Source: Nitrososphaerota archaeon (GTDB lineage: Archaea; Thermoproteota; Nitrososphaeria; Conexivisphaerales; DTJL01). Taken from it: a DNA stretch of 64,000 bases. The notes under the pieces are model-generated. The model was not told where the DNA came from. It saw only the letters and a program-made list of their open reading frames with translations, and did no database searches. The translations under genes were made by a program, and so were the position numbers. Positions 5,047 through 9,673 of the stretch are shown in pieces; position 1 is the stretch's first letter; every line of letters starts with the position of its first letter. The stretch spans positions 1-64,000 of the forward strand of contig JAJPJS010000013.1 in the NCBI GenBank assembly GCA_021324115.1, given 5' to 3'.

Positions 5047-5544
5047 TCATGCAGAGGACTGATCCATAACCAGCTTTGGTTTTGATATTTGTTTTGGCTT
5101 GTAATCGCCCGCGACAGTCCTGAAAGCTACATTTAACCTGTTCCAGCCGTTGATAGCTATTATTGCGAGGGTAAGATCGACTATTTCTTTTTCTGTGAAA
5201 TATTTCATCACTTCCTCATAGACGTCATCAGGAACATGAGTTTCTGACACAAGGGTTACGGCTTCGGTCCAGGCCAGAGCGGCTCGTTCCCTGTCCGTAT
5301 AAAATGGAGACTCACGCCAGGCAGAAAGCTGGTAGATGCGTTGTTCAGACTCACCTTCGGCTCTCGCGTCTTTTGTGTGCATATCCAAACACCAGGCACA
5401 ATTATTGATCTGTGACGCCCTTATCTTTACTAAATTCAACAGTGAGCTTTCAAGACCAGAAGAATGAACGTATTTTTCCAAGGAAAGCATGGCTTCCCGT
5501 ACTCCAGGCGCAACATCATTATACTTGATACGTGGCTTCATCAC
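5047..5544 (-). CDS. Carboxymuconolactone decarboxylase / AhpD-like peroxidase family protein
   Basis: A 165-residue all-helical protein with the family's redox motif C49-x2-C52 followed by His56, in the context N-C-x2-C-x3-H. AhpD-like proteins with this motif reduce peroxides by way of the two cysteines, usually fed by a thiol carrier; others in the family are decarboxylases. The longer form with an RxAALAWTEAVT-type helix is typical of the ubiquitous stress-related subgroup. It is monocistronic with about 180 bases to the next gene. The peroxidase function is inferred from the CxxC; the substrate is unknown. Confidence 0.85.
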   Translation of the reverse strand: MMKPRIKYNDVAPGVREAMLSLEKYVHSSGLESSLLNLVKIRASQINNCAWCLDMHTKDARAEGESEQRIYQLSAWRESPFYTDRERAALAWTEAVTLVSETHVPDDVYEEVMKYFTEKEIVDLTLAIIAINGWNRLNVAFRTVAGDYKPKQISKPKLVMDQSSA

Positions 5545-5724: not shown

Positions 5725-6708
5725 TCAAATTTCTGTTGCATCGATAGCCAGTTCTCGGCTGAGTTCGGCCAAGTCAACCACGGATTTATTATCCGTACCA
5801 AAAATGTCTTGCTTGGCGGGTGGCATCTCAACATATGTGGGAATCCTTTGAAGAATCCTGTCTGCATATGTCGGCCTGTCTTCTTCCTGGTAGAATACAC
5901 CAATGGGTATTTTATTTCCCCACTCATTCGAAAGCCTGAAGATCTGCTCAATTTTTCTATCAAAATCTTCCTGTGGCATCTTCGAAGTTACAACAGGGTC
6001 ATACCCCTGCGAGTTAACGTCGTATATTCTTGGAACGGCCTTTCCTGAAGCATCTCTCCTGTCTTCGCCGTCGTACCAAGCCTTCGTTTCAATATCATTG
6101 TACGTGGGGCATGGCTGAAGCACGTCTACAAGTGCAAGCCCGTTGTGTGAAACAGCCTTCTTTATTGTTTCCTTCAGATGTCTCGTATTGAATGCGTAGC
6201 TTCTTGCAATGAATGTGTAGCCCGTAGAAAGAGCCAGAAGAATTGGATTTATTCCGCTGTTGATGTTCGGTTGTGGAAGCGACTTGGTCTGTTCCCCGAG
6301 GCGTTGTGTGGGTGAAGCCTGACCCTTTGTTAACCCATATACACCATTATCGTGCACTATGTATGTCATATCGATGTTTCTCCTACCTGCATGTACAAAA
6401 TGTCCGGCTCCAATTCCGAAACCATCCCCATCCCCACCCAGCGCGATCACTTCCAGACCGGGGTTCGCGAGTTTTGCCCCCTGGGCAAACGCCAGGGTTC
6501 GTCCATGAAGCGTATGAATGCCGAACGTATTCGTCCAGTGAACTATCTTCCCATGGCACCCAATGCCTGAAAAAAGAACCACTTTGTCTATGTCGATACC
6601 CATTTCAGTCAGTGCAAGCTGTAAGGAGGCCTCTATCCCGAAGTCTCCACAGCCTGGACACCAGTCATTGAACAGGTCGGTTCTGACATCCGTAAGTTTA
6701 AGCACCAT
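5725..6708 (-). CDS. 2-oxoacid:ferredoxin oxidoreductase, beta subunit
   Basis: A 327-residue thiamine-diphosphate-binding subunit. Cys17 and Cys20 in CPGCGDFG, Cys51 in GIGCHGK and a later Cys in LQPCPTYN fit the single [4Fe-4S] cluster of this family. GGDGDGFGIGAGH (about 91-103) is the diphosphate-Mg site. It pairs with the preceding fused gamma-alpha subunit and starts inside it (11-bp overlap), so the two are translationally coupled. The heterodimer oxidatively decarboxylates 2-oxoacids with coenzyme A and reduces ferredoxin, as in Sulfolobus-type enzymes. Substrate breadth (pyruvate, 2-oxoglutarate, branched chain) cannot be read from the sequence. Confidence 0.95.
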   Translation of the reverse strand: MVLKLTDVRTDLFNDWCPGCGDFGIEASLQLALTEMGIDIDKVVLFSGIGCHGKIVHWTNTFGIHTLHGRTLAFAQGAKLANPGLEVIALGGDGDGFGIGAGHFVHAGRRNIDMTYIVHDNGVYGLTKGQASPTQRLGEQTKSLPQPNINSGINPILLALSTGYTFIARSYAFNTRHLKETIKKAVSHNGLALVDVLQPCPTYNDIETKAWYDGEDRRDASGKAVPRIYDVNSQGYDPVVTSKMPQEDFDRKIEQIFRLSNEWGNKIPIGVFYQEEDRPTYADRILQRIPTYVEMPPAKQDIFGTDNKSVVDLAELSRELAIDATEI

Positions 6709-8644
6709 GGGTCAACACCACCCTCCTGTTCTTTCTAGGAGCCGAAATCACCAGCTTGATCGCTTGATACAGCTCATTCAGAGATATGGGCCTTCCGTTA
6801 TACTTGACTATGACATTTTCGATCATAATTCCGGTTTTTTCCGCAATAACCTTGGCCATCTGAGCAGAATAATTCTGTTCGACATCGACGATTAATTTTG
6901 CTCGGGAGAGGTACTTCTTCACCTGTTCGACCGGAAACGGGCTGGCGGTTCTTATCTGAAGAAATTCAGCCGCAACGCCTTCTTTTTTGAGCAGTTCCAT
7001 CACCTCCAGAATTGCGCCCTTGCTGGAACCCCAGCTTACAATCGTCAGGTCAACACTTTTCTGATCCGAGAAAATAGCGATCTTTTCCTCAACCGGTATC
7101 TCCTTATCGGCGGTCTCGAGTTTCCTCATCCTCTTGTCCATCATGCGAACTCGGTTGTCAGGCTCCTCATTGATGTGTCCCATCTCATCATGTTCGTCTC
7201 CCGTATTCCAGAATCTGTAACCAGGCATGCCAAGCACCGCCCTTTCGGAGACGCCGTCTTCAGTAAAAAGAAACCTCTTGTAAGGTTGCTGGTGCTGGCC
7301 GTCAGGAGTGATCAGCTTCCCCCTTTCGATTGGTATGGCACTCGCATCCAGTGGGGTGATTGTCACATTGCAATTAGCGAGTCCCTTGTCGACTATATGA
7401 ATTACGGGGAGCTGATACCTCTCTGCATAGTTGAACGCACGTATGGCATCATAAAAGCACTCCTTCACATCTCCTGAACAAATCACGATCCTCGGAAACT
7501 CTCCATGTGAAGCATTCAGAGCAAACTTCAGGTCGCCCTGTTCGGTTCTTGTCGGCATTCCGGTCGATGGTCCGCCTCTCGAATACAACGTAATCACCAC
7601 CGGTACTTCGTTGATTCCAGCCCACCCCATTCCTTCAACCATCAATGAGAATCCTGGCCCTGAAGTGGATGTTCCGGCCCTCGCGCCGGTCAGTGCGGCC
7701 CCGGTGGCCATCGTTATCGCGGCAATTTCATCTTCCGTCTGGACAACAAGTATGGAGCCCTTGCCTCCTGAGACATTAAAGTACTCATGTGCTTCCAAGA
7801 ATTCGCTTTCATCTGAGGCTGGCGTGATGGGGTAATACGTCTGTACCCTGCAGCCACCTACGAGTTTCCCAAGAGCTACGGCTTCATTTCCGGAAATGTA
7901 GATTCTCTCGCTGTTCTTGATCGGCACTATACTGTATGGGAGCTTTTCCTTGAAGTTATTCTCCGTAAAATCATAAGCGATTGCAGCTCCTTCCACATTC
8001 ATCTGAATGATCTTCTGCTTGGACGCAAACGTCTGCTCTATCGCTTTGAACATGTAACTTCTGTCGAGTCCAAGAAGAGCACCGGAAAATGAGGCAGCAA
8101 GCACATTGATTATCTTGTTCAGTCTGCTGAGCTGCGTCTCCCCCAGCTTCTTGGCAGTCTGACCAATGATATCATCATACTGCACAGGATAAATGTGAAT
8201 ACCTCTACCTTCGGCTTCTTTGATTATACCGGCGACATCAGGGGTGAAGCCCCCTGATTCCAGCCTCCGTATCACCCTCTGCCTGACTTCCATGTTGATC
8301 GTATCCACCTTTTCTATGGGTGTCTGCAAAACGGTATTGTTGTAGATTATAGCGCCTGAATTCTCCACGGTCTCCGCATGCCTGATCAATGTTTCCGCGT
8401 CAAAGGAGGCCAGGAAGGTCACACCGTCAACCTTGCAATTTACGGGTGTGGGACTCAGCCTTACTTCGAAATAGCTGTGCAACCCTTTGATGTTTGAGTA
8501 GTATTCCCTCGTTCCGTAGACCCAGAGGCCTGCAAGGGCGCAGGCTCTCGAGAAAATTCTGGCCGAAGAGTCGACGCCGCTTCCCTGCGCCCCTCCTATC
8601 TTCCAGTTTATTCTGTTTGTATCAGACAGGTCGCAATCACCCAC
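6698..8644 (-). CDS. 2-oxoacid:ferredoxin oxidoreductase, fused gamma-alpha subunit
   Basis: A 648-residue fusion. The N-terminal gamma domain (about 1-200) has the GGAQGSGVD signature at 17-25, and the alpha domain carries the diagnostic YPITP at 271-275, which is known to be functionally important in the Sulfolobus enzyme family. The architecture matches the two-subunit archaeal type. The GTG start at 8644 overlaps the stop of a 46-residue Cys-rich protein by 8 bases. Together with ferredoxin upstream and the beta subunit downstream it forms a compact minus-strand operon that links 2-oxoacid oxidation to ferredoxin reduction in the cytoplasm. Confidence 0.95.
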   Translation of the reverse strand: MGDCDLSDTNRINWKIGGAQGSGVDSSARIFSRACALAGLWVYGTREYYSNIKGLHSYFEVRLSPTPVNCKVDGVTFLASFDAETLIRHAETVENSGAIIYNNTVLQTPIEKVDTINMEVRQRVIRRLESGGFTPDVAGIIKEAEGRGIHIYPVQYDDIIGQTAKKLGETQLSRLNKIINVLAASFSGALLGLDRSYMFKAIEQTFASKQKIIQMNVEGAAIAYDFTENNFKEKLPYSIVPIKNSERIYISGNEAVALGKLVGGCRVQTYYPITPASDESEFLEAHEYFNVSGGKGSILVVQTEDEIAAITMATGAALTGARAGTSTSGPGFSLMVEGMGWAGINEVPVVITLYSRGGPSTGMPTRTEQGDLKFALNASHGEFPRIVICSGDVKECFYDAIRAFNYAERYQLPVIHIVDKGLANCNVTITPLDASAIPIERGKLITPDGQHQQPYKRFLFTEDGVSERAVLGMPGYRFWNTGDEHDEMGHINEEPDNRVRMMDKRMRKLETADKEIPVEEKIAIFSDQKSVDLTIVSWGSSKGAILEVMELLKKEGVAAEFLQIRTASPFPVEQVKKYLSRAKLIVDVEQNYSAQMAKVIAEKTGIMIENVIVKYNGRPISLNELYQAIKLVISAPRKNRRVVLTHGA

Positions 8645-8777
8645 CCGTTGCGACTCCGTAGCCTATGGCGCAATCACAGCCTTCTTTCTGGCCACAGTAC
8701 GGACACCCGCATGTGCAGTGGTCTATATCATTCTTACAGTTGGGGCACTTCAAAAGTTTATCATTTTCTGAAGACAT
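8637..8777 (-). CDS. 46-residue Cys-rich zinc-binding miniprotein
   Basis: An ATG (8775-8777) opens a 46-codon frame ending in TGA at 8637-8639. It encodes eight cysteines in the order C-x2-C-x6-C-x-C-x-C-x2-C-x5-C-x-C, with a His just before the third. The first four cysteines could build a zinc ribbon and the remainder a second metal site. It sits between ferredoxin (14-bp gap) and the gamma-alpha subunit (8-bp overlap), so it is a member of the operon by spacing. Cys density and tight coupling make it a likely real gene. Assembly factor, zinc or cluster carrier, or electron-transfer mediator for the oxidoreductase are guesses. Confidence 0.7.
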   Translation of the reverse strand: MSSENDKLLKCPNCKNDIDHCTCGCPYCGQKEGCDCAIGYGVATGG

Positions 8778-8791
8778 GGCATCACCTGTTA

Positions 8792-9223
8792 CTACTGCTG
8801 GGTTATCTTGATTGCCTGAGTGGGGCAGCTGGTTTCACACGCCATACAGAAGATGCAGTCTGGTTCCCTCACAGGGTCTGATTTGTCCGTTCTGTATTTG
8901 TTCCATTCATCTGACCCCTGTTGAAGAACCTTGTCTTTACCCGTACCCGCCTGGCCCGGATTCAGCGCCCATTCGAATACGAAGACCGGGCAGACGTCCA
9001 TGCATACGCCATCGGCTATACAGCTTTCCCAGTCGACGGCGACCTGCGTCCCATGAATGCCCAGCGTCGTTGGATACGGTACATTTGGCTCACCACTCAT
9101 TCGAACCTTACCTTCAGCCCTCACCTTGTGCCCGAGATGTTCTCCAGTCGACGGATATTCCTCTGCCTTGCTTATGAAGTCGGGGTCGATCGGTCTCGTC
9201 TTATAATCAACGGGTCGTACCAA
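8792..9223 (-). CDS. Zinc-containing ferredoxin (7Fe type)
   Basis: A 143-residue ferredoxin with the long N-terminal extension of thermoacidophile zinc ferredoxins. Candidate zinc ligands are His29, His32 and His57. Seven cysteines (68, 74, 78; 123, 126, 129, 133) fit one [3Fe-4S] and one [4Fe-4S] cluster, since the usual fourth ligand of the first motif is not Cys. Length and sequence are, from memory, very close to Thermoplasma acidophilum ferredoxin. It is the natural electron acceptor of the 2-oxoacid oxidoreductase encoded downstream in the same operon. It follows a coiled-coil protein gene by 6 bases. Confidence 0.95.
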   Translation of the reverse strand: MVRPVDYKTRPIDPDFISKAEEYPSTGEHLGHKVRAEGKVRMSGEPNVPYPTTLGIHGTQVAVDWESCIADGVCMDVCPVFVFEWALNPGQAGTGKDKVLQQGSDEWNKYRTDKSDPVREPDCIFCMACETSCPTQAIKITQQ

Positions 9224-9229
9224 GCAACA

Positions 9230-9673
9230 TCACCTCTTTAGCGTCCACCTGTAATGGGAAACCCTCCCCTGTTTAGTTGTTCTATAACATGTAGCTACGA
9301 GGTAAGCCATCTGTTCTGAAAATTTAACGGCTGGAGCAAAGCTGTGTCTTATCCATTCATGAAATACCTGATCGTTATCAAGAGTGCGCATCTGACCCAG
9401 CTCCTTCCTTATCCTGTCATGTTCCGACATCAACTTGGCTGCGATTGGGGGGCTGAATTTTGCCACATATTTCGATATGGATTCGCAGTTGTCAAGTGTT
9501 TTCTCTACCTGTTTGGCCCGTATCTGAATGTGTTTTAGCATGTCTTGGCTTTCGAGGGTTTGTCTGCGAGACCGAGAAAGTTCCGAAAGCTCAGACTTTA
9601 ATCCGGCAATTTTACCCTCCAACGCATCGAGCTCAATACTATTTTCAGCTTCATGCCTGACCATGTTTTTCAC
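9230..9673 (-). CDS. Coiled-coil protein heading the ferredoxin/oxidoreductase operon
   Basis: A 147-residue mostly helical protein. Residues 10-65 form a charged coiled coil, and the C-terminal part holds a HEWIRHSFAP segment that resembles a helical-bundle ending. There is no membrane segment and no recognised family. The GTG start at 9673 is preceded at the right distance by a strong Shine-Dalgarno GGAGGG (about 9679-9684 on the minus strand). It is the first gene of the operon, only 6 bases before ferredoxin, so its role is probably tied to 2-oxoacid oxidoreductase assembly or regulation; this is inference from position. Confidence 0.7.
   Translation of the reverse strand: MKNMVRHEAENSIELDALEGKIAGLKSELSELSRSRRQTLESQDMLKHIQIRAKQVEKTLDNCESISKYVAKFSPPIAAKLMSEHDRIRKELGQMRTLDNDQVFHEWIRHSFAPAVKFSEQMAYLVATCYRTTKQGRVSHYRWTLKR

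Follow-up and report, generated by a model that had tools for sequence, protein, structure and literature searches.

Gene Organization of the Locus

The window, the whole stretch of 64,000 nt analysed here, derives from a contig of a Nitrososphaerota archaeon. Its minus strand carries, in the order of reading, a 147-aa frame (9230–9673), a zinc-containing ferredoxin, a small cysteine-rich protein, the oxidoreductase subunits KorA and KorB, and a carboxymuconolactone-decarboxylase-type protein (5047–5544). The small protein, for which the working label S is used, has 46 residues including eight cysteines and is encoded at 8637–8777 (minus strand) between an ATG start and a TGA stop; its translation is MSSENDKLLKCPNCKNDIDHCTCGCPYCGQKEGCDCAIGYGVATGG. 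The assignment relies on the frame as read, on homologues and on dN/dS values. A putative Shine-Dalgarno-like element, AGGTGAT, can be read in the sequence ahead of the ATG at 8777 (8781–8787, minus strand, read from 8787 to 8781). The stop codon of the ferredoxin gene ends at 8792, leaving a gap of 14 nt before the start of S, and KorA begins with a GTG at 8644, overlapping S by 8 nt, so that the tight coupling on both sides described in the sequence-only reading holds. In the relative G002 (L101), the gene order is identical and the overlap of S and KorA is likewise 8 nt.

KorA (6698–8644, minus strand) is the fused gamma-alpha subunit of a two-subunit 2-oxoacid:ferredoxin oxidoreductase. 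Its POR, POR_N and core II domains score above their cut-offs, NF041170 is passed (847.6 against 800), and the alpha subunits of PDB entries 5b46 and 5b48 are matched at 7.6e-168 and 4.1e-167. KorB (5725–6708, minus strand) overlaps KorA by 11 nt (6698–6708) and is the beta subunit according to Pfam and NCBIfam, passing TIGR02177 (385 against 261.9) and falling just short of NF041171 (416.7 against a cut-off of 423). It carries the TPP site and, by homology, would hold the single [4Fe-4S] cluster. The zinc-containing dicluster ferredoxin (8792–9223, minus strand), likely the electron acceptor, matches PDB entries 1xer and 2vkr as well as NF041165, the latter at 2e-69 and below the cut-off (232 against 280 bits). 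The 147-aa frame preceding it is coiled-coil-like and matches no Pfam family; a similar-sized counterpart lies before the G002 ferredoxin (L101:2617–3039).

Evidence for a Protein-Coding Gene

S is a real gene, since its conservation settles the question. A frame this short, under the usual gene-calling size, could in principle be a chance open frame without a product. However, S is the only one of the 444 frames of 30–70 aa in the window to contain at least eight cysteines, and in 30 first-order Markov simulations as many cysteines were seen in 5 of 20,978 frames of this length, while the pattern CxxC..CxCxCxxC..CxC was seen in none of the 20,978. The comparison with G002, the nearest relative, covers 36 aligned codons from the first cysteine on, with 14 identical codons, 15 synonymous and seven non-synonymous differences (dN 0.10 and dS 2.33 by NG86; dN 0.12 and dS 0.62 by YN00), and gives a dN/dS of about 0.04. 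S is furthermore conserved across several archaeal phyla. The chance-frame reading was rejected on the simulation statistics and dN/dS, and its probability is negligible. An eight-cysteine protein of 46 residues inside the oxidoreductase operon, as first proposed from the sequence, is thus confirmed by the reading of the frame and by conservation.

Cysteine Sites and C-Terminal Tail

S is built of two tandem halves on one plan, CxxC-x(4–6)-CxC, followed by a conserved C-terminal ATGG. The first four-cysteine site, C11-x2-C14-x6-C21-x-C23 (8709–8747, minus strand), is a putative metal-binding site whose four cysteines are conserved without exception in the 44 aligned sequences. The second, C25-P-x-C28-G-x4-C34-x-C36 (8670–8705, minus strand), is conserved in the same alignment, with C25, P26, C28, G29 and C36 invariant and C34 present in >90% of the sequences. 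Counted from the first motif cysteine on, the 66 distinct KorA-linked S sequences contain eight cysteines in 42 cases, nine in 21 and ten in 3. A variant at L104:690–824 is devoid of the seventh cysteine (C34), and KEDDC replaces the CxC. In the tail (ATGG, 8640–8651, minus strand), G45 is invariant and A43, T44 and G46 are nearly invariant across the 44 aligned sequences; 62 of the 66 distinct sequences end in GG, and TG followed by G or A is found in 65. An invariant C-terminal GG is therefore not a property of S, as Nitrosopelagicus-type tails end in ATGA and the tail of L129 in GGD.

The second site contains a CPxCG knuckle, a feature characteristic of zinc or rubredoxin-type sites. S matches no family in Pfam or NCBIfam, and the sole Pfam suggestion for one of its homologues is a zinc ribbon at 0.0016, below the cut-off (18.3 against 27 bits). 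The window S itself has no Pfam zinc-ribbon match, and a profile search of the PDB returned just zinc-ribbon scraps with E values of 0.2 or worse. Membership in the Pfam zinc ribbon was rejected because the score lies below gathering. Zn_ribbon_3 (PF13248) and the haloarchaeal zinc-finger micro-proteins, as presented in the accessible part of their description (PMC10716476), resemble S in their shortness and CPxCG knuckle, whereas S is set apart by the low score of its homologue, its paired CxxC/CxC sites and its GG tail. The PorD/KorD delta subunits (2[4Fe-4S]) are similarly small, have eight cysteines and are encoded beside the alpha gene, but the cysteine spacing of S is not ferredoxin-like. 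The CxxCxxCxxxCP motif is absent and there is no Fer4 match in Pfam or NCBIfam, and S was accordingly rejected as a ferredoxin of the 2[4Fe-4S]/PorD class. An AlphaFold model calculated from 44 alignment rows has a mean pLDDT of 58.2 and is unusable as a fold; a beta-grasp fold appears unlikely for a protein of 46 residues with eight cysteines.

The listings of literature searches, which took in few subscription papers, contain no description of S, and none of the three peptides CPYCGERD, CPYCGERDKCEC and ALFDAATGG occurs in the papers searched within this same scope. Archaeal small-protein families with a conserved C-terminal GG or CC were screened in 2010, when about two ammonia-oxidiser genomes existed. 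According to the available text of that study, the screen yielded 8 families, comprising six with a beta-grasp fold, one with a TBP-like fold and one uncharacterised family with CC, none of which is described there as cysteine-rich or tied to 2-oxoacid:ferredoxin oxidoreductase (PMC2948915).

Distribution and Linkage to KorA

GTDB 220, scanned at one genome per species, yielded 335 relatives, and the best 80 named loci were kept. At 69 of these best 80, S precedes a same-strand KorA by <200 nt, so that the small frame is indeed present at this position in relatives; such loci were found in ammonia-oxidising Nitrososphaeria, Bathyarchaeota, one Methanoperedens and a few Thermoplasmata-type genomes. 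The other 11 loci are situated at contig ends (L103, L120, L123, L135, and L136), have KorB following instead (L147) or KorA 409 nt off (L150), or belong to a last set (L171, L174, L178, and L180). Within a sample of 61 genomes, consisting of that of the window and 60 relatives, S immediately precedes KorA in the window genome itself, in G002 and in 24 of 24 genomes of family f7, whose S sequences are those of Nitrosopumilus and its kin as judged from the named loci. The order ferredoxin-S-KorA recurs in G002, archaeon B6 (L104) and G920 (L325), and S-KorA-KorB without the ferredoxin is the general arrangement. A tie of S to the ferredoxin was rejected, since S stands before KorA without a ferredoxin at most loci.

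Across 398 Thermoproteota genomes, S is present in 97 (E<=1e-7), a count from which 30 of 127 genomes with best E values of 1e-7 to 1e-3 were excluded because their matches are weak and were taken for other zinc ribbons. Where KorA is present (1e-120), S accompanies it in 94 of 226 genomes, with no S at E<=1e-7 in the other 132; where KorA is missing at this threshold, S occurs in 3 of 172 (G124, G167, and G307). S is rare outside Thermoproteota. At 1e-5, the phylum of L105 gave three positive genomes among 194, with G632 counted on a weak partial match inside a long frame, and the phylum of L157 gave one among 196.

Mapped onto a KorA tree with 69 rows, of which 43 have S and 26 lack it, the S label changes 4 times as opposed to 21.0 times in shuffles, none of 500 being as low; near-identical KorAs (>93%) and a hand-chosen similar set were dropped, and the tree shows clustering rather than a rate. 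Within or beside the S clade, the rows without S comprise G374, the second KorAs of the window's own family (contig C27 of the window genome, G000, as well as G001 and G002), a second KorA of G524, and G096. KorA positions specific to S-bearing enzymes were not found at the single threshold tried. Judged by this conservation, S appears to be an accessory protein of ancient origin that belongs to a single clade of the two-subunit 2-oxoacid:ferredoxin oxidoreductases of archaea.

The KorA and KorB of the window are clear members of the Sulfolobus-type enzymes StOFOR1/2 (PDB 5b46 and 5b48), with a zinc ferredoxin as the likely acceptor. The Sulfolobus-type enzyme differs in being described with alpha and beta subunits only, as the Sulfolobus tokodaii enzymes are presented in the accessible text as two-subunit alpha-beta enzymes studied as purified protein, StOFOR2 being recombinant (PMC5020499). 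The KorAs of families f29 and f32 at L271, L272, L281–L284, and L287 showed no S upstream.

Links to Fe-S Cluster Assembly

In two species of one genus, G520 (L122 and L210) and G922 (L323), a NifU domain and S are joined in a single gene of 118 aa that is directly followed by KorA. The NifU domains of the two fusions exceed the gathering score of Pfam NifU (6.4e-7 and 2.7e-8) and retain the NifU CxxC. The dN/dS values, at 0.10/2.04 in the NifU portion and 0.096/1.86 in the S portion, indicate strong purifying selection on both halves.

A second link comes from G096 (L243/L312, contig C7), whose KorA lacks S and falls inside the S clade. Here, the genes leading into KorA encode TusA, DsrE, a class-V aminotransferase, read by context as a cysteine desulfurase, a NifU_N/IscU protein (4.6e-53) and, in the slot of S, a 57-aa YHS/TRASH-type protein. 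This ISC-KorA arrangement stems from one contig of one MAG, for which mis-binning is possible, and, of the 44 genomes examined from the order of this MAG, one has the small TRASH protein. An adaptor should be genetically linked to an Fe-S carrier and to one client; for S, such a link is provided by the NifU-S fusion and by this one S-less ISC operon. Their simplest reading is that S, or a stand-in, brings Fe-S machinery to the KorB cluster.

The sulfur-transfer genes neighbouring KorA in G096, even though S is absent there, and the predominance of GG ends would also fit a role of S as a sulfur carrier or protein modifier that ends in GG without having the ubiquitin fold. This is very improbable in view of the ATGA and GGD ends.

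Upstream of S, L102 and L317 carry ferritin-like genes, as does L318 on sequence likeness only. The second KorA of the window genome and its kin (L269, L270, and L053) are without S; upstream of this second KorA in G000 and G002 lies a conserved protein of ~120 aa with weak DUF779/Fe-S_biosyn similarity below the cut-off, for which a PDB search found nothing.

Proposed Role as an Fe-S Adaptor

Three roles had initially been put forward for S, namely metal loading, electron transfer and regulation. Metal loading is the best supported of the three because of the NifU fusion and the ISC-KorA operon, and we infer metal binding by S and its docking on the enzyme as parts of it. We favour S as a client-specific adaptor that loads or maintains the single [4Fe-4S] cluster of KorAB over an electron-transfer or a zinc-type regulatory subunit, at a probability somewhat short of even. 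The two tandem CxxC-CxC sites would each bind one metal, zinc or iron, and S would dock on KorAB, perhaps via its ATGG tail, thereby bridging an Fe-S carrier (an Nfu/NifU-type protein) and KorAB. The sole [4Fe-4S] cluster, in KorB, would be inserted or repaired through S, which, being translated just ahead of KorA, would be made in step with its client.

Several observations stand against an adaptor. The fusion comes from one genus and two species, the ISC-KorA contig from one MAG, and Fe-S assembly genes do not adjoin S at most of its loci. Furthermore, S occurs without KorA (at 1e-120) in three genomes, an S-dependent KorA residue was not found at the threshold tried, and extra copies adjoin Lrp/AsnC proteins. 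The S-less majority of KorA-bearing Thermoproteota implies that two-subunit enzymes can mature without S.

In the available text on the two-subunit enzymes, TPP is accompanied by only one [4Fe-4S] cluster, located close to the surface of a large pocket that is left by the missing ferredoxin domain, domain V (PMC5020499). As a small electron-transfer subunit, S would occupy this domain III/VI pocket, standing in as a minimal version of the ferredoxin-like delta subunit, and pass electrons from the proximal cluster to ferredoxin. Its eight cysteines in two fours are what a dicluster protein needs, the ferredoxin gene adjoins S in the window, G002, L104, and G920, and the KEDDC stretch without Cys34 in L104 is counted in its favour. 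However, S has the CPxCG knuckle instead of the ferredoxin motif, and the single Pfam suggestion points to a zinc ribbon, if below the cut-off. A NifU fusion would be odd for such a subunit, and S-less relatives function with free ferredoxin, which together make an electron-transfer role unlikely.

The favoured adaptor would resemble a known system in idea only. In yeast, Yae1-Lto1 is an adaptor for Fe-S insertion into Rli1 that uses a C-terminal recognition residue, according to the part of the study available (PMC4523923). The analogy would lie in a small dedicated adaptor with a conserved C-terminal motif that connects Fe-S machinery to one client; no sequence relation is claimed, and S has neither the deca-GX3 motif nor the C-terminal tryptophan reported in that text. 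A still more tentative proposal, on the doubtful side, sees in S the first known member of a class of archaeal adaptors dedicated to the assembly of 2-oxoacid:ferredoxin oxidoreductases. S would hand a cluster or sulfur from NifU/ISC to KorB, its ATGG tail would dock or be chemically active, and its duplicates in ammonia oxidisers would couple other partners through the tail.

S precedes a central-carbon enzyme in all 24 Nitrosopumilaceae-type genomes of the first sample, yet it is nameless in Pfam and NCBIfam. Nitrosopumilaceae-type archaea are among the commonest in the ocean. Should the [4Fe-4S] cluster depend on S, KorAB of such archaea ought to be co-produced with S when made recombinantly, and the finding would open a direct way to study how an Fe-S adaptor specific to one target operates in archaea.

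Additional Copies and Orphan Loci

Extra S copies are found in ammonia-oxidising archaea (L031–L043, L047, L048, L050, L171, L174, L178, and L180). One type keeps the ALFDAATGG tail and adjoins stand-alone Lrp/AsnC ligand-binding proteins (L036, L038, L174, and L178), a position which points to regulation. S might be a zinc-type subunit, structural or regulatory, through which KorAB is connected to effector-sensing proteins and 2-oxoacid flux is controlled. This would fit L147:3239–4606 of Nitrosopumilus sp. b1, where an Lrp/AsnC ligand-binding protein, an S copy and a KorB paralogue stand in a row with no KorA adjoining. However, all three are joined at this one locus only, the KorA-linked S has no Lrp/AsnC neighbour in the loci read, and the NifU fusion, on which the adaptor reading draws, is left unexplained; a regulatory role is accordingly rather improbable. 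The tail-less type of S copy has a separate neighbourhood beside a DUF5679-like gene and unnamed proteins.

At L264 and L265 (G307 and G124) and at L135, S has an intact tail and no KorA nearby, and the frame ahead of it carries an extra CxxC. An orphan S on a Bathyarchaeota chromosome (L123:615–1450) has glutaredoxin and ferredoxin-thioredoxin reductase genes ~2 kb upstream.
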